A DNA stretch of 64,000 bases, taken from the NCBI RefSeq assembly GCF_900167225.1, contig NZ_FUXH01000001.1, positions 217,892 through 281,891 on the forward strand, written 5' to 3'. Shown here piece by piece: positions 6,888 to 15,245 of the stretch. Source of the stretch: Porphyromonas crevioricanis. Its GTDB lineage: Bacteria > Bacteroidota > Bacteroidia > Bacteroidales > Porphyromonadaceae. The position numbers and the translations under genes were made by a program. Position 1 is the first letter of the stretch. Each line of letters begins with the position of its first letter. A model generated the notes under the pieces. That model worked only from the letters and a program-made list of their open reading frames with translations, was not told the DNA's origin and did no database searches.

Positions 6888-7916
6888 CTAAATTCTTCCC
6901 TCAAGAGCTGAGAGCATACCGCAAGCCGCAGCTATGTCTTCTCCTCGTGATTGACGGATCGTTACGGTATGTCCCTTTCGCTCCAACATCTCTTTGAATT
7001 GGATTAGTCTGTCTTCATCGGTGGAGGGCAGGTCGACATTCGGTATTCGGTGGTATCGGATCAAGTTGATCAAGGCCGGCAGTCCCTTGAGGAGAGTGGA
7101 TAATCTGTTTGCGTGGTTGAGAGTGTCATTGAGTTTGCCAAAGACGATATACTCAAAACTTAATTTTCGTTGCCCTCCAAAGTTGTGCTGTCTTAGCAGT
7201 TCTATTGTTCGTTCAATAGGGAAAGCCTTTTCGGTGGGCATTATTTGTGCTCGCTCTTCCGGAATTGCATTGTGAATGCTGATAGCCAAATGACAGTTGC
7301 ATTCTTTGAGGAATGTCTCCAAGGCCTTTGTCACTCCAATTGTGCTGAGAGTTATTCGTTTGGGACTCCAAGCAATTCCCCAATTAGAAGTCAATATGCT
7401 TATGGATTTCATAACAGCCGAAAGGTTGTCAAGCGGTTCGCCCATACCCATGTAGACGATATTGGTTAGCAGTGAAGCTTCTTCTACTGAGAAGATTTGG
7501 TTGATAATTTCTGCAGCCGAGAGATGACCACTGAACCCCTGTTTCCCTGTCATGCAGAATAGACAATTCATTTTGCAACCGACTTGAGTGGAAATACAGA
7601 GGGTATATCGCCCTTTATCCGGTATCATTACGGATTCTACATATTGTCCCTCCTTGATGCGAAACAGATATTTACGAGTACCATCTGCAGATTGCTGTAC
7701 GTATTGGGGAGCATATCGTCCTACTGTGTATTCTTGGGATAGTTTCTCTCTATTACTCAAGCTCAAATTAGTCATTTCCTCTATCTGAGAAATTCGTTTT
7801 ACATAAAGCCAATCGGCTATCTGTTTGGCAGTGAATTTGGGCATTCCTGACCGGATAACGATCTCCTGTAATTCTTGTAGAGAAAGGCCTAAAAGAGGTT
7901 TCTTATTCTGCTCCAT
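6888..7916 (-). CDS. rlmN: 23S rRNA (adenine(2503)-C(2))-methyltransferase RlmN
   Basis: A 342-residue radical SAM enzyme that methylates A2503 of 23S rRNA, and in many bacteria A37 of some tRNAs. The iron-sulfur motif is Cys114, Cys118 and Cys121 (GCKMNCLFCM). The two extra catalytic cysteines expected for RlmN are at Cys107 (YTLCIST) and Cys332 (AAACGML). GMGEPLDN and ITLSTIGV are further family marks. It is the last gene of the minus-strand cluster, 59 bases after uvrB, and converges on the repeat element. Confidence 0.95.
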   Translation of the reverse strand: MEQNKKPLLGLSLQELQEIVIRSGMPKFTAKQIADWLYVKRISQIEEMTNLSLSNREKLSQEYTVGRYAPQYVQQSADGTRKYLFRIKEGQYVESVMIPDKGRYTLCISTQVGCKMNCLFCMTGKQGFSGHLSAAEIINQIFSVEEASLLTNIVYMGMGEPLDNLSAVMKSISILTSNWGIAWSPKRITLSTIGVTKALETFLKECNCHLAISIHNAIPEERAQIMPTEKAFPIERTIELLRQHNFGGQRKLSFEYIVFGKLNDTLNHANRLSTLLKGLPALINLIRYHRIPNVDLPSTDEDRLIQFKEMLERKGHTVTIRQSRGEDIAAACGMLSALEGRI

Positions 7917-7975
7917 ATGGCTCTTGGTGAGAAAGACTTTGTTGTAACCAATGAAAAGATTGAGATGTATATTCT

Positions 7976-10006
7976 TTACTTGCTTGCTTTGAGACGAGCT
8001 TCCAGCTTGTGCAGCTCATCTCTAAGCCTTGCTGCCTCCAGAAAATCCAGCTCGGCTGCTGCATCGAGCATCTTCTTACGTGTGAGCTCTATCAGATCTT
8101 TCAGTTTATCAGAGGTCAGCTTGTCTACTATCGGATCGGTAACTCGTCCTGCTGCGGGCTCTACATAGGCATGAAGCCCTCCCATATCTTTGTCGTCTAA
8201 ATCTCTGTTATCCAGTATGGATTTGAGGTTCTTGACAACTTGTTTGGGCGTGATACGATTAGCTCGATTGTATGCCATTTGCTTCTCTCTCCTGCGCTCC
8301 GTCTCGTCAATGGTGCGCTGCATACTTTCTGTGATTTTATCTGCATAGAAGATTACTCTGCCGTTGATATGTCTTGCAGCACGTCCGGCTGTTTGTGTCA
8401 GAGAGCGATGAGAGCGAAGAAAACCTTCTTTGTCTGCGTCAAGTATTGCTACAAGAGAGACTTCCGGCAGATCCAACCCTTCGCGGAGCAGGTTTACCCC
8501 GACAAGCACATCGTACACTCCTCTGCGAAGATCTTCCATGATACGTATTCGCTCCAGAGTATCCACATCGCTGTGAATATAGGCTGTGTTGTAGTTGTGT
8601 TCGGATAGATAGTCGGACAGCTCTTCTGCCATGCGTTTGGTCAGGGTTGTTACCAATACGCGTTCTTTCCGTTCGATGCAACAGCTTATTTCCTCTTCCA
8701 AGTCGTCTATCTGATGCTCTGTGGGACGAACTTCGATGATCGGATCGAGCAGACCAGTGGGTCGAATCACTTGCTCCACCACTATGCCTTCGGATTCTCC
8801 CAGCTCATAATCTGCCGGAGTGGCACTGATATAAATTGTCTGATGAGTGAGGGTACAAAACTCTTCAAAGGTCAAAGGCCTGTTGTCCAGAGCTGCCGGA
8901 AGACGGAAACCATAGTGTACCAAGTTTTCTTTTCGAGAACGGTCCCCTCCGTACATGGCTCGTACTTGAGGGATCGTCACGTGGCTTTCATCTATCACCA
9001 TGAGGAAGTCTTTTGGGAAATAGTCGAGTAAGCAAAATGGGCGTTCCCCGGCTTTCCTGCCGTCGAAGTAGCGAGAATAGTTCTCTATTCCCGAACAGTA
9101 ACCCAGCTCTCGGATCATCTCAAGATCATAGGTTACTCGCTCATACAGACGCTGAGCTTCGAGAGCTTTGCCTTCTTTTTCGAGGAATGCCTTTTGAGTG
9201 CCCAAGTCTACGTCTATCAGGCTTACAGCTCTGTCTACCTGCTCTTTGGTTGTGACAAAGAGGTTAGCTGGATGTATTTGCAGACTGCTCATCGGGCCGT
9301 ATTCCTCTCCACTGATCGGATTGAATGAGGCTATATGCTCTATTTCGTTGTCCCAAAATTCTATTCTATAGGCCATTCCCTCGTATCCCTCAATAGCCGG
9401 AAATACGTCTATCGTATCTCCTCGTACACGAAAGTCCCCACTGTTGAATTCTATTTTGTCGTTTGTGTAGTAGCTCTCTACCAGTTGTCTCATCAATATA
9501 TTTCGAGAGAGCTTCTGACCGATCCTCAGATGAATAACTTTTTCTTCAAAAGCCTTTGGATCGGCCATTCCATACAAACAGCTTACAGAAGATACCACTA
9601 TCACATCTTGTCTGCCACTCAATAAAGCGGCAGTAGCTTTCAAGCGAAGTTTCTCTATTTCAGCATTGATTGCCATATCCTTCTCTATGTAAGTATCACT
9701 TACAGGTATATAGGCTTCCGGTTGGTAATAGTCGTAGTAAGAAACAAAATACTCGACAGCATTGTCGGGGAAGAAGGATTTGAATTCACCATAGAGTTGT
9801 GCTGCCAAAGTTTTGTTGTGACTGAGCACTAAGGTTGGTTTATTGATTTGAGCTATTACGTTCGCCACAGTGAATGTTTTGCCCGATCCCGTTACCCCCA
9901 GCAAGGTCTGTGCAGCGTCTCCATTCCGCACACCTGCTACTAGTTGAGAGATGGCCTGAGGTTGATCCCCGGTCGGGACAAAAGAAGATTTGAGTTCGAA
10001 TTTCAT
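7976..10006 (-). CDS. uvrB: Excinuclease ABC subunit UvrB
   Basis: A 676-residue damage-recognition helicase of nucleotide excision repair, acting with UvrA and UvrC. Walker A is GVTGSGKT (37-44), the DNA-clamping beta-hairpin is YYDYYQPEAYIP, the DEAD-like motif is VIDESHVTIPQ, and motif VI is QTAGRAARH. The C-terminal UVR motif (LDFLEAARLRDEL) that contacts UvrC is present. All motifs are intact, unlike those of the adjacent PriA. It lies 18 bases after priA in the same cluster. Confidence 0.97.
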   Translation of the reverse strand: MKFELKSSFVPTGDQPQAISQLVAGVRNGDAAQTLLGVTGSGKTFTVANVIAQINKPTLVLSHNKTLAAQLYGEFKSFFPDNAVEYFVSYYDYYQPEAYIPVSDTYIEKDMAINAEIEKLRLKATAALLSGRQDVIVVSSVSCLYGMADPKAFEEKVIHLRIGQKLSRNILMRQLVESYYTNDKIEFNSGDFRVRGDTIDVFPAIEGYEGMAYRIEFWDNEIEHIASFNPISGEEYGPMSSLQIHPANLFVTTKEQVDRAVSLIDVDLGTQKAFLEKEGKALEAQRLYERVTYDLEMIRELGYCSGIENYSRYFDGRKAGERPFCLLDYFPKDFLMVIDESHVTIPQVRAMYGGDRSRKENLVHYGFRLPAALDNRPLTFEEFCTLTHQTIYISATPADYELGESEGIVVEQVIRPTGLLDPIIEVRPTEHQIDDLEEEISCCIERKERVLVTTLTKRMAEELSDYLSEHNYNTAYIHSDVDTLERIRIMEDLRRGVYDVLVGVNLLREGLDLPEVSLVAILDADKEGFLRSHRSLTQTAGRAARHINGRVIFYADKITESMQRTIDETERRREKQMAYNRANRITPKQVVKNLKSILDNRDLDDKDMGGLHAYVEPAAGRVTDPIVDKLTSDKLKDLIELTRKKMLDAAAELDFLEAARLRDELHKLEARLKASK

Positions 10007-10024
10007 TTGTATGTAGGGAGGTGT

Positions 10025-12496
10025 TTATATGGCATCGACATCGAAGTGTATCTTGCACTTTTTGGAGTCTGGAACGGAGATGGAAAGCTCATTGTAAGCT
10101 GCGATAATCGCTTGACGCTCGGCATTTGAGTTCATGAAAGTAGGCCTGCGAAGTATAATTTGCCGGATGTAGTAGCGATCTATACGCTCAATGTCGGGAG
10201 TATGGATGTCGGTGATCAGTTCATGTGGAAGGTTTCGATTGATAATGGTTGCAAATTGTCTTGCAACATTGGATACAACAGACCTATCCAAGGCTCTTAT
10301 AACTACTGTTGTGAGTCTGGTAAAGGGAGGAAATTGACAGGCTTGACGTTCTTGAAGTTGCTCCTCAATGAAAAGCCTGTAATCCCCGAGAGACAAGGCC
10401 TCTATAAAAGGGTTTTGAGGATCATTCGTTTGCAATATCATTCTTGTATTTCCCTCCTTTACTCCGAAGGAAGAACGGATAGCAAGTTGATACAGAAGTT
10501 GATAGGCTTTTTCGTCTGCTCTAAAGTCTGGAAAGGCTAAAATGCTGTCCAAGTTTATCACTCCAATGAGATCGATATCGTGCCAGATCGGGAGAGCAGC
10601 CATCATCTGTGTTCCTACTATAATGTTGACATTGCCAGTTTCTATCTGGTTGAGCAGAGTTTCCAGCCGCTTCTTGCTTTTCGCAATATCGGAGTCTATG
10701 CGGAGTATTTGGGCCTGAGGGAACAGCTTCTTTATTTCTTCGGCCACCCTCTCTGTGCCAAAACCATATGGCTGCAACTCTTCTCTATTGGGGTTTCCAC
10801 AGCTCGGACAAATGTAAGGAAGCAGCTGTTCGTACCCGCAGTAGTGGCAGCAAAGTTTTTCACTCTGTTTGTGGTATGTAAGGCTTACGGAGCAACGAGG
10901 GCAACAGAGACTATTGTTGCACTTCTTGCATTTGACATACATTCCGTATCCTCGCCTATTTTGTATCAATACTACGCGCCGCCCTTTTTCCAAGATTGAT
11001 TTTACAGCAGTTTCAAGTTGTGGAGAGATCGTTTCGTCCGATTGAAGACGTCTTTGACGGTAGAGTGTTTTCATGTTTACCGTTTCTATGTCTATCGGTC
11101 TGGGCCGGGGTTGTTCTTCTCCTTGTAGGAGATTTTTCCATTTCCCTATTGACATATTGTATAGCGTCTCAGCAGATGGAGTCTCGGAGGTGATGAGCAC
11201 CTTTGCCCCTTTCAGTTGTCCTAACATGATAGCGGCATCTCGGGCATGGTATCGAGGTGCCAGGAGTTGTTGTTTATAGGCATATTCTTGTTCCTCATCG
11301 ATAATGATTAACCCCAGACGTTTCATTGGCAGAAAGAGAGCAGAGCGATTTCCAATCACAACAACTGGTATATCTTGTTGAGCAAGTTGCTGAAAAAGAG
11401 TGATACGTTGGCTGGTTGTTTGTCGAGAGGAATAGAGCTGACATCTATCTCCATAACGTAGACAGAGTCTTTCGGTAAGACTGTCAGCCGATGGAGGGTA
11501 TTGAGATTCAGGACTAAGAAGTAACACTTGTTTGCCCTCTGCATATGTTTGGCTTATCTGCTGCTCCAAAAAAAACTCCTTACGCTTAATACTCTCTTGA
11601 TAGTGGACAGATACGCCCTCCGGCAGGATTATTTTCTCTTTTGGATTTAGTGGAGAAGTAGGAAAGACCGATCCAACAGTTTTAGTCAGTTTTCTTAGTC
11701 TTTCTTTTCGGATCAGAATACCTTTCCTGATCAGAGCTCTCAGGGTAGTAGCTTCATTCGCATTATTGCCACAGAGAAGTCGCAAAGGAATTTCTCCATG
11801 AGGGAATATGTCTTGAGAATCTAATAGAGCAATCAGTTTTTGCAATAGCTTTTGTTGTTTTGGTGCTCGGTGCAGGAGGTCTATTTGCTTCATCAGAAGC
11901 ATTTCATCCTCAGCTAACGAGTCTGCTAAGGCAACCGTTTGTTCGTGTTTCCCTTTTGTTCTAATGTTAAGCTCTTCTTTCAGCTGTATGGCTCCTGATT
12001 TTACCAAACGTAAAAAAGAAGGTAGGGCAGGGCGACCGATACTTTTCTGTATTTCGGCTATGGATAAGGATTCTTTCCCTCTTTTGATAATGAGATCTAA
12101 GATGTTTAAGTCTGCACAAGGGAGAGGCTCCGAAGCTTCGTATTCAGGGTTTGCGATAACTTCTGTATGACTTTCAGGTAAGAGGGCAGAGGGCAGAGCT
12201 GTCCGGAGGACTTCTCCTTCAGTACACAAATAGTATTTGGCTATCCATGTCCAAAAAGCAATGTCATCACTACTGACCAGCGGAACTTCATCCACGACAA
12301 AAAGGATCGGCTTGATTTCTTTGACTCCCTCAGGTGGTAGTTGATCGATCCTTATAACAACAGCCGTATAAAAGCGTTTGCTGCCCAAGGGCACTGCTAC
12401 TCGCATACCTACCTTTATCTTTTCTTCCAAATCCTGTGGTATGGAGTAGTGATAGCTCCCGGGGATAGCCAAAGGGATGAGGACGTTGGCGTACAT
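10025..12496 (-). CDS. priA: PriA-family replication restart protein with degenerate helicase motifs
   Basis: An 823-residue protein with the full PriA layout: an N-terminal 3'-end-binding domain, a winged-helix segment, two helicase lobes, a zinc module and a C-terminal domain. The zinc cysteines look intact (CKKC, CPRC, CHYC, CPSC between 523 and 566). The helicase motifs are not. The Walker A position reads GVSVHYQES (294-302), without the GKT lysine and threonine. DEEH is DEEQ (400-403). GTQMxAKG is GTQMMAALP. The QVAGRAGR motif is QLAIRSSF (670-677). RYHARD and PDFRA remain. The frame is full length, so this is not simple decay. I infer a PriA that still binds forks and loads the primosome but does not unwind DNA. 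It lies between dnaG and uvrB in one operon. Confidence 0.9.
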   Translation of the reverse strand: MYANVLIPLAIPGSYHYSIPQDLEEKIKVGMRVAVPLGSKRFYTAVVIRIDQLPPEGVKEIKPILFVVDEVPLVSSDDIAFWTWIAKYYLCTEGEVLRTALPSALLPESHTEVIANPEYEASEPLPCADLNILDLIIKRGKESLSIAEIQKSIGRPALPSFLRLVKSGAIQLKEELNIRTKGKHEQTVALADSLAEDEMLLMKQIDLLHRAPKQQKLLQKLIALLDSQDIFPHGEIPLRLLCGNNANEATTLRALIRKGILIRKERLRKLTKTVGSVFPTSPLNPKEKIILPEGVSVHYQESIKRKEFFLEQQISQTYAEGKQVLLLSPESQYPPSADSLTERLCLRYGDRCQLYSSRQTTSQRITLFQQLAQQDIPVVVIGNRSALFLPMKRLGLIIIDEEQEYAYKQQLLAPRYHARDAAIMLGQLKGAKVLITSETPSAETLYNMSIGKWKNLLQGEEQPRPRPIDIETVNMKTLYRQRRLQSDETISPQLETAVKSILEKGRRVVLIQNRRGYGMYVKCKKCNNSLCCPRCSVSLTYHKQSEKLCCHYCGYEQLLPYICPSCGNPNREELQPYGFGTERVAEEIKKLFPQAQILRIDSDIAKSKKRLETLLNQIETGNVNIIVGTQMMAALPIWHDIDLIGVINLDSILAFPDFRADEKAYQLLYQLAIRSSFGVKEGNTRMILQTNDPQNPFIEALSLGDYRLFIEEQLQERQACQFPPFTRLTTVVIRALDRSVVSNVARQFATIINRNLPHELITDIHTPDIERIDRYYIRQIILRRPTFMNSNAERQAIIAAYNELSISVPDSKKCKIHFDVDAI

Positions 12497-12510
12497 TGTT
12501 CTTTGGCTGA

Positions 12511-14487
12511 TTATAGAATGACTCTTTCCCCCAAAGCTTGGGCGAAGGACGCTTTTGTGTTGTTTAGGTCTTTTAACTCAGAGAGAAGGTCCAGTATTTG
12601 CTCGGATTCGTTATTTCGTTGGGCGATTACTATTTCTCGTTGCACTTCGTGAATCCGTTTTATTACAAATGCGTTTTGGAAAATCTGTATCGCTCGCACA
12701 CACTGATCTGCCAAGCGTTTTTGTTCTTTCAAGGCTTCTGCTTCTTGCTCTTTTTCCATATCCTCATCCGATTTAAGCAGGTCACTCAGTCGATAACGAT
12801 CGGAAATTAGATCCATAGCCAGGCAGTTGATTTCCTCTTGTGGATGGTGAATGAAGTAGGATTGACTGTTGAAGTCTCTATTTTCACGAGTCTTCATTGC
12901 GGCCTCCTCCAGTATTTGTCGGACAAGAGGCGTGGTAAAATCCAAAATTCCATCAGAGGCAAGTTCTTCATAGACAAAAGAAGCCAATACGATGCGATTT
13001 GCCGGTTTCCCATCCCTATCCAGAAAGAGGATATCTTCTCCTCCATGCTTTACCACAAGTCTGATAAGCTCCAGTTCTTCCTTTTTGGGAGGTTCTTTTT
13101 GTTTTGTCTCTTCCCGAGTTTGGAGAAGGGTTTCTTTTTCATTTGTCGTATTCTCTCTCGGAGTATTGTGAGCGGTGTATTTGCTATTTCTATGTTTCTG
13201 GACTTCGATCAGTAGCAGCTCTTCTGATATTTCAAGTTTTTGAGAAGTAGCTTGCACATAGACGGACCGATTGATGGCATCCGGTATTATGGATATGCTG
13301 TGCACAATGTCCGAAATGACTTTGGCTCGTTGCATCGGATCACTTCCCGAGTCATGCAACAGAAGATTGGTTTTGAAGCTGATGAAGTCTTGTTCGTTTC
13401 TCTGCAAATAGGTTTGAAACTCCTCCGCAGTATGAGATTTGGCGTAAGAGTCTGGGTCTTCCCCCTCCGGAAGCAGTACAACCTTTATGTTCATCCCTTC
13501 GGCCAGAAGCAGATCTATTCCTCTTAATGCAGCTTTAATACCTGGTGCATCACCATCGTACAAAACAGTGACGTTCGATGTAAACCTCTGTATTAGACGA
13601 ATTTGAGGGATTGTAAGAGCTGTGCCGGAGGAGGAGACTACATTCTCAACGCCGGATTGTGTCATTTGGAGCACATCGAGGTAGCCCTCCACCAGATAGC
13701 ATTTATCCAGCTTTGATATGGCTCGCTTGGCTTGGTGTAAACCATAGAGCTGGTAACTTTTGTCGTATATGATGCTCTGTGGAGAGTTGACATATTTGGC
13801 CAGTTTGTCGGACTTTTTGAGAATGCGTCCTCCAAAGCCCACTGGCTTGCCACTGACCGTGTATATCGGGAATATTATGCGCCCTCTGAACCGGTCTGTA
13901 AGGAGTTTCCCAGCCTGCGTTTGGGAAGACAGCCCAGTAGTGATCAGAAGTTCGGTTGAGAATCCTTTGTGTATGGCAGTTTCTGAGAAAAGATTCCATT
14001 CGTCCGGAGCATACCCCAGGCCGAAACGTTCTATTGTATCCGGTCGGATTCCCCGTTCTTGGAAATAGGACAGACCGATGCGTTTCCCCTCATCACTTTC
14101 CAATAGATATTTATGGAAATATTTAGCAGCAAATTCGTTGAGGATAAAAAGACTTTGTCGTTTGTCAGCCTCTCTTTTTTCCTCGTCGGTGAGTTCTCTC
14201 TCTTCTATGGGAATGCCATACTTGCGAGCCAGATACTTGAGAGCCTCTGTATAGCTCATTTGCTCCAGCTTCATCAGAAAGTTGATAGGATTTCCTCCCT
14301 CTCCGCAAGAAAAGCATTTGCAGAAGTTTTTCCCTGGAGTGACATAAAAAGAAGGGTTGCGATCGGCATGGAAAGGGCATAGTCCCACGTAGCTTGCTCC
14401 GCGTTTTCGTAAGGACACGAAGTCGCTCACCACATCTAATATTTGTGCGGCATCTGTGATTTTCTGTATGGTAACAGGATCTATCAC
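12511..14487 (-). CDS. dnaG: DNA primase DnaG
   Basis: A 658-residue primase that makes RNA primers at the replication fork. The N-terminal CHC2 zinc finger is present (CPFHADRNPSF, then CKCFSCGEGG). The TOPRIM core has YLVEGYLDVLQ and VTVLYDGDAPG with the catalytic Glu and Asp residues. The C-terminal part, after a lysine/glutamate-rich linker near 440-470, is helical and would contact the DnaB helicase. Only two bases separate it from the kdsB stop, so the genes are surely co-transcribed. Confidence 0.96.
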   Translation of the reverse strand: MIDPVTIQKITDAAQILDVVSDFVSLRKRGASYVGLCPFHADRNPSFYVTPGKNFCKCFSCGEGGNPINFLMKLEQMSYTEALKYLARKYGIPIEERELTDEEKREADKRQSLFILNEFAAKYFHKYLLESDEGKRIGLSYFQERGIRPDTIERFGLGYAPDEWNLFSETAIHKGFSTELLITTGLSSQTQAGKLLTDRFRGRIIFPIYTVSGKPVGFGGRILKKSDKLAKYVNSPQSIIYDKSYQLYGLHQAKRAISKLDKCYLVEGYLDVLQMTQSGVENVVSSSGTALTIPQIRLIQRFTSNVTVLYDGDAPGIKAALRGIDLLLAEGMNIKVVLLPEGEDPDSYAKSHTAEEFQTYLQRNEQDFISFKTNLLLHDSGSDPMQRAKVISDIVHSISIIPDAINRSVYVQATSQKLEISEELLLIEVQKHRNSKYTAHNTPRENTTNEKETLLQTREETKQKEPPKKEELELIRLVVKHGGEDILFLDRDGKPANRIVLASFVYEELASDGILDFTTPLVRQILEEAAMKTRENRDFNSQSYFIHHPQEEINCLAMDLISDRYRLSDLLKSDEDMEKEQEAEALKEQKRLADQCVRAIQIFQNAFVIKRIHEVQREIVIAQRNNESEQILDLLSELKDLNNTKASFAQALGERVIL

Positions 14488-14489
14488 GA

Positions 14490-15245
14490 TTATTGCTCTG
14501 CTTTCAATTTTTCTATAGCAAGAGAGAGGTCTTCTGCTGTGTCTATGCCTATTGTCTCTTCTTCGGCCTGCAGCACACGTATGCAGTAGCCTGCTTCTAA
14601 CCAGCGGAGTTGTTCCAAACTCTCCGCTTGCTCTAATGGGCTGACGGGCAGGTCTGTCAGTTCTCTCAGTATATTAGCACGAAAGGCGTACAGCCCTATG
14701 TGTTTGAAAAAGACATGAGAACTGGACCACTGTGTCGGGTCTACATTCCTTAGATATGGAATGACCGATCGGCTAAAGTAGATAGCATTACCAAATGAAT
14801 TGACAATCAACTTTGGGGAGTTGGGATTAGACAGATTCGCAAAGCCACAGTCAGCAGGGAATGGTATAGCAGTAGTAGCTATATCTACCTTGTTGTCCTC
14901 AAAAGAAGAGGCCAGTCTTCGTATGAGTTTGGGGTCGATGAAGGGTTCATCTCCCTGCAAGTTGATTACGATATCTGCTTCTTCTCCCAATTTGTCGAGA
15001 GCTTCCCGACAGCGGTCCGTGCCAGACTTACAGCTCTCGGATGTGAGTATTGCTGTCCCTCCAAAACTCTCTACTGCGGAGATTATACGCTCGTCATCGG
15101 TAGCAACGATTACTCGTTCTACAGCTTTGCTTGCTTGCTCTACAACTCGCTGTATCATGGGCTTCCCAAGCATGTCTATCAGAGGTTTCCCAGGCAATCG
15201 AGTCGAAGCATACCGGGCCGGGATGATGGCTATTACCTTATCCAT
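14490..15245 (-). CDS. kdsB: 3-deoxy-manno-octulosonate cytidylyltransferase
   Basis: A 251-residue nucleotidyltransferase that makes CMP-Kdo for lipopolysaccharide inner core. The N-terminus [16 protein letters not shown] holds the CTP-binding loop, and NLQGDEPFI is the conserved mid motif. Length is normal. It is the first gene of the five-gene minus-strand cluster. A minus-strand -7 box lies only six bases upstream of the ATG, which suggests a leaderless or nearly leaderless transcript. Confidence 0.95.

Follow-up and report, generated by a model that had tools for sequence, protein, structure and literature searches.

A PriA with eroded helicase motifs and retained fork-binding domains in Porphyromonas crevioricanis

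We analyzed a 64,000-nucleotide stretch of the Porphyromonas crevioricanis genome (contig NZ_FUXH01000001.1, positions 217,892 to 281,891; here called the window) and found that its PriA, the primosomal protein N', has lost the motifs of the helicase motor and retained the fork-binding domain, the zinc region, and probably the C-terminal domain. We consider it likely, with a probability of about 0.7, that this protein is a motorless scaffold that does no unwinding of its own. An earlier reading of the sequence had proposed a helicase-free PriA lineage, a proposal now supported by motif loss throughout the family, purifying selection in relatives, retention of the fold, and the finding of a single priA. 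The loss is wider than that reading stated, since it is family-wide and recurs elsewhere. PriA pseudohelicases are a known kind, described in Deinococcus though not mentioned in that reading, and the Porphyromonas case is a new and deeper natural example. The features of the gene are as follows.

10025..12496, reverse strand: priA, motor-dead primosomal protein N', 823 amino acids (open reading frame from ATG; TIGR00595)
12164..12496, reverse strand: 3'-DNA-binding domain, residues 1-111, kept (PF17764, 90.8 bits)
11615..11695, reverse strand: residues 268-294, where the helix preceding the P-loop is missing in the model (AlphaFold2 [AF2] against intact control)
11576..11599, reverse strand: probable Walker A equivalent QESIKRKE (300-307), lost (alignments and modeled strand)
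11288..11299, reverse strand: motif II, DEEQ (400-403), acids kept, histidine lost
11237..11254, reverse strand: RYHARD (415-420), R419 being unchanged across all 18 dead rows compared
10799..10930, reverse strand: cysteine-rich zinc region, eight cysteines (523-566), kept (PF18319, 40.9 bits)
10589..10615, reverse strand: motif V, GTQMMAALP (628-636), GTQ kept, KG lost
10493..10531, reverse strand: PDFRADEKAYQLL (656-668), kept
10466..10489, reverse strand: motif VI, QLAIRSSF (670-677), second arginine lost
10028..10330, reverse strand: C-terminal domain, residues 723-823 (PF18074, 26.3 bits; fold match)

Motor motifs and retained domains

The priA frame is open across all 823 codons from its ATG start, as first read, and the product scored 413 bits against the whole-protein family model TIGR00595 (cut-off, 230.35); its closest named relatives are those of Porphyromonas. 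The 3'-binding domain exceeded its PF17764 cut-off of 22.7 bits, and the PF18074 score fell slightly below the cut-off of 26.9 in a region covered by the fold match. Motor-intact Bacteroidota PriAs P0019 and P0046 share the domain order of the window protein at 34-35% identity, with a similar modeled fold. However, the DEAD and Helicase_C models both match P0046, whereas a Pfam search at 0.001 gave no match to either on the window PriA. Motifs I, Ia, V, and VI are broken, and motifs II and III are altered. Neither the Walker A pattern GxxxxGK[TS] nor the motif VI pattern QxxGRxGR of active superfamily 2 (SF2) helicases is present, the latter being replaced by QLAIRSSF. The motifs DEEQ, GTQMMAALP, QLAIRSSF, and RYHARD and the cysteines lie where the original prediction had placed them, and retention of the zinc cysteines, RYHARD, and PDFRA was confirmed. 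Two findings that it had named as telling against it were sought: a GK[TS] elsewhere in the protein, of which there is none along its entire length, and a second priA, which was not found in this 99.96% complete, 29-contig genome, where a genome-wide search gave a single priA match.

The Walker A site had been placed at GVSVHYQES (294-302); the absence of GK[TS] stood, and the position probably shifts. An alignment composed mostly of rows from the second genus of the family does set GVSVHYQES on Walker A, but most alignments place QESIKRKE (300-307) there, and another differs by one residue. The QESIKRKE register is favored because the modeled strand at 295-299 matches the strand that precedes the P-loop in the intact control (296-301). 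These observations favor QESIKRKE as the P-loop equivalent, with the register unsettled. In this register, K306 falls on the column of Escherichia coli K230; the column holds lysine in 13 of 17 nonredundant PriAs lacking Walker A (hereafter dead PriAs), and the next holds glutamate in 15. The second glycine and the threonine of the P-loop are lost in all 17 rows, and the first glycine is lost in 16.

The overall PriA fold is retained in the AF2 model and by fold match, as anticipated. In the intact control, a helix (278-293) lies ahead of the P-loop; in the window model, there is no helix between 267 and 295, the predicted local distance difference test score is below 50 at 272-282, and the P-loop is shortened relative to the control. 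The glutamine at E. coli position 203, in the lost helix, is retained in 1 of 17 dead rows.

Walker A is present in 102 of the best 120 homologues and absent from 18, among them P0001, which is near-identical to the window protein. Relatives at 56% and 42% identity on other contigs have likewise lost it. Conservation was scored over 163 columns conserved at ≥95% in 62 nonredundant intact PriAs. The dead set keeps 57 of these at ≥95%, and 53 drop below 50%. Losses are enriched among ATPase-motif columns (motifs I, Ia, II, III, V, and VI; 24 lost and 12 kept, against 29 lost and 98 kept elsewhere; Fisher p = 1.8e-6), with motif bounds that we take to be those of the SF2 motifs set on E. coli numbering.

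Retained residues comprise the DEE of motif II, R419, N513-R514, D657-F658-R659, E662, Q666, and Q670. The 3'-binding domain keeps 21 of 23 conserved columns, and all eight cysteines of the zinc region are present in 37/37 family rows. Within-set identity is 0.48 for dead and 0.49 for intact PriAs in the 3'-binding domain, 0.40 and 0.37 in the C-terminal domain, and 0.44 and 0.62 in lobe 1. Of these three regions, only lobe 1 is less conserved in the dead set, so the motor is the relaxed part of the protein. Within the 3'-binding domain, residue 16 (window 12449-12451; D17 in E. coli PriA) is threonine in 101/102 intact and histidine in 17/18 dead homologues, a clade-wide change.

Loss in the family and in other Bacteroidia

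In order of relatedness, priA was found in 26/26 genomes of the same genus, with internal stops in 0/26, and in 37/38 of the same family, the exception being one genome at 89% completeness. Alignment of the family rows showed Walker A to be absent from all 36 that cover the P-loop (the window's own and 35 relatives), of 37 read. Erosion is graded: DEEH is kept at motif II in five rows (L002, L003, L007, L012, and L015), and the remaining rows carry DEEQ, DQEQ, EQEQ, AEEQ, or TDEE. The second genus, which has also lost the GTQ of motif V, has the most eroded PriA. The ratio of nonsynonymous to synonymous substitution (dN/dS) was estimated for 17 pairs of genus relatives, six of them saturated or nearly so. 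Among the 11 pairs with dS <1, the ratio ranged over 0.08-0.14 for the gene as a whole, 0.03-0.19 across individual domains, and 0.08-0.18 within lobe 1. Values near 0.1 in every domain of the relatives indicate that the gene is not a pseudogene.

Beyond the family, TIGR00595 matched at 1e-10 in 295/295 genomes of an order sample, some weakly, and at 1e-30 in 291/296 genomes of a class sample. In the five unmatched class genomes (G334, G393, G415, G416, and G454), one of which is rated 100% complete, PriA may be absent, fragmented, or missed. Mainly genomes with low TIGR00595 scores were read in both samples. The 30 genomes so read from the order comprised 3 dead, 24 with Walker A, and 3 whose rows do not cover the P-loop; the corresponding numbers for 18 class genomes were 4, 13, and 1. 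Walker A is gone in order genomes G119 (family f83), G317 (f57), and G296 (f9; GKN) and in class genomes G369 and G514 (f151), G343 (f125), and G380 (f154); the PriA rows without Walker A in these six other Bacteroidia families are L075, L085, L089, L183, L184, L188, and L189. Eight order low scorers (G053, G068, G129, G202, G267, G273, G306, and G316) and twelve from the class (G438, G462, G483, G561, G607, G474, G538, G435, G352, G492, G592, and G552) were left unread. Walker A is present in 90/90 higher scorers (L032-L061, n = 30; L197-L256, n = 60; L239 and L252 settled separately) and in 80/80 named Bacteroidota loci, none titled Porphyromonas (77 by pattern and 3 by alignment); among the higher scorers, a single-residue Walker A change in an unread genome would escape notice.

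Intact Walker A motifs occur in G093 and G260, of the genus of G317; in G233, of the genus of G296; and in G274, of the family of G119. In a tree built without the motif columns, the dead/intact pairs of G317, G296, and G119 group with 99, 96, and 99% support in the Shimodaira-Hasegawa-like approximate likelihood ratio test (SH-aLRT), and five changes between intact and dead are needed in Bacteroidia. For this tree, L188, L189, four second-genus rows, and E. coli were removed and intact sister rows for G317 and G119 added; the removed rows are unplaced, and taxonomy alone is the basis for treating f125 and f154 as separate losses. A first tree that included the motif columns and the very long branches, and that lacked those two sets of sister rows, draws most dead PriAs together, so that three changes suffice. 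Both were quick searches with SH-aLRT support only and no bootstraps. Five changes are thus supported but not settled, and the same motor loss appears to have occurred independently in four or more further lineages of Bacteroidia.

Four further rows are irregular. L044 (G083), a priA match with an intact Walker A, has one in-frame TAA. L220 (G213) has DEEQ and L039 (G229) has DEAH in place of DEEH, both with Walker A intact, so a motif II change alone is no marker of a dead motor. L068 (G138) has an intact Walker A (GITSSGKT) but GTRMISRW at motif V and QISEKACRI at motif VI, possibly a first step of motor loss that starts in the other lobe.

Partner proteins and neighboring genes

RecG scored above its cut-off in 32/32 family genomes and in 59/61 overall; the median scores of the two family genera were 705 and 720 bits, and the median for the remaining genomes was 720. 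A UvrD-type helicase was present in all 61 genomes searched, with normal scores in all 32 from the family. Retention of both suggests that PriA decay is not part of a general loss of helicases. The genome that holds the window carries a DciA gene (44.6 bits). The median DciA score is 39.5 bits in the genus against 58.8 in other families; however, the size-matched control RecO_N drops nearly as far (44.2 against 58.4), and we do not claim a DciA-specific co-decay in the genus. In the second genus, DciA was undetected in 6/10 genomes (G026, G027, G028, G030, G031, and G033) and RecO_N was missing in 1/10; loss of DciA there alongside PriA erosion is a lead. Of 40 genomes from other families, 38 gave a DciA match, including 6/7 with dead PriA; the two misses were G380 (dead PriA) and G352 (PriA unread).

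The genes on either side of priA are as follows.

12511..14487, reverse strand: dnaG (primase), 14 bases upstream of priA (TIGR01391, 453.6 bits)
7976..10006, reverse strand: uvrB, 18 bases downstream of priA (NF003673, 1010.6 bits)

Across window positions 6888-15245, kdsB, dnaG, priA, uvrB, and rlmN follow one another head to tail, all on the same strand and separated by short gaps. This arrangement was considered as conserved synteny and rejected: it is compact in the window, yet it is not kept in relatives. Within the 1.5-kb flanks of 30 family loci, the window's own included, dnaG occurs in 3 and uvrB in 1.

The scaffold reading, its rivals, and its meaning

Motor loss is also known in actinobacterial PriA, which resembles the window protein, by description, as a divergent putative ortholog across a whole clade. 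It has been called "smaller and very divergent" (PMC1193525). A closer parallel is Deinococcus radiodurans PriA, a natural pseudohelicase with broken ATPase motifs; the purified protein lacks ATPase and unwinding activity and binds forks, and contact with DnaB is reported (PMC4504706). Its Walker lysine is an arginine and its Walker B is poor, a comparison made with the text of that paper and not with the sequence (PMC4504706). The window PriA shares the degenerate Walker A within a PriA fold, but it belongs to a different phylum and is eroded in the P-loop and motifs Ia, V, and VI; at Walker B, DEEQ keeps the acids without the histidine, and the family spans DEEH to TDEE. The biochemistry is known for D. 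radiodurans, whereas the Porphyromonas protein is known here from sequence and model. E. coli priA300 (K230R), without ATPase and helicase activity, is disabled for the PriA/PriC route and not for PriA/PriB, and rep gains importance in it (PMC9713433). As predicted for the window PriA, K230R is motorless, and one restart pathway is still supported (PMC9713433, PMC4752480). However, K230R is one substitution made in the laboratory, in cells that have PriB and PriC, whereas several motifs have been lost naturally from the window PriA, and that loss is fixed. A literature search by titles and abstract openings, with subscription journals mostly outside it, found no report of a PriA with a dead motor from Porphyromonas or from other Bacteroidota.

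From the motif losses, we infer that ATP hydrolysis and unwinding are lost in the window PriA. By analogy with D. radiodurans PriA and E. coli priA300, the protein would dock on abandoned forks as a scaffold, a landing platform rather than a motor. Its 3'-binding domain, RYHARD loop, and zinc region would still recognize the fork, and DnaB would be handed to the lagging-strand template without DNA unwinding by PriA. DciA, whose gene is present, may join PriA in loading DnaB. The lagging strand could be cleared by a UvrD-type helicase or RecG, or clearing may be unneeded, as when helicase-deficient E. coli PriA works through PriA/PriB (PMC9713433). The earlier reading had likewise proposed that fork restart would use another helicase or need none.

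Several points weigh against a motorless scaffold. D400/E401/E402, Q670, and R674 of the motor survive, as does K306, which occupies the Walker lysine column if the favored register holds, so residual nucleotide binding is possible. The dispensability of the E. coli motor applies to the PriB route. The models are ligand-free, and the pocket was not inspected in coordinates. The dN/dS pairs are genus relatives, the window's own gene being in none of them, and no close DNA relative of that gene was found in the genus search. Loss of activity, DNA binding, and DnaB contact are predictions for the window PriA.

The surviving residues could instead belong to a rebuilt nucleotide switch that does not unwind but binds nucleotide through a noncanonical pocket and changes shape at forks. 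This would suit the prevalent lysine and adjoining glutamate in the favored register, the DEE and R674, which are largely kept, and the purifying selection on lobe 1. We nevertheless regard it as unlikely, given the P-loop glycines and threonine lost from nearly every dead row, the helix with its conserved glutamine missing from the model, and other branches of the family that lack the lysine and first acid (AEEQ, TDEE). Reuse of the PriA body for something other than fork restart, perhaps as a structural partner to primase or to repair proteins, seems quite improbable; priA is indeed flanked by dnaG and uvrB here, and residue 16 has changed in the dead PriAs, but these neighbors are rarely kept at family loci and the docking domains of PriA are retained. 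Fast divergence and graded motif loss across the family might also suggest a gene on its way out, which is contradicted by dN/dS of about 0.1, the lack of internal stops across the genus, and the invariant zinc cysteines, and which we consider very improbable. An assembly, frame, or alignment artifact is hardly credible: nothing favors it for the motif loss, the exact P-loop register alone being unsure, and the near-identical P0001 in the protein collection and the relatives on other contigs share the loss.

The scaffold reading extends to a broader account, which we advance tentatively and would put at somewhat short of even odds. Across Bacteroidia, the PriA motor may be expendable and may have been discarded five to seven times independently, with the scaffold selected. 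In Porphyromonadaceae, the pre-P-loop helix would have been deleted and the P-loop collapsed into the helix start, DciA would be eroding in the second genus, and DnaB would be reloaded motor-free.

The purpose of the PriA helicase is an open question, and E. coli is viable without it (PMC4504706). The recurrence of the loss provides a comparative system in same-genus dead/intact pairs, G317 with G093 and G260, and G296 with G233, through which further losses or compensation could be traced. In E. coli, RecG is argued to restrain PriA unwinding of D-loops (PMC4752480). A motorless PriA may be of benefit in being unable to unwind D-loops, and if PriA is motor-free, the restraint proposed for RecG would be void in Porphyromonas.
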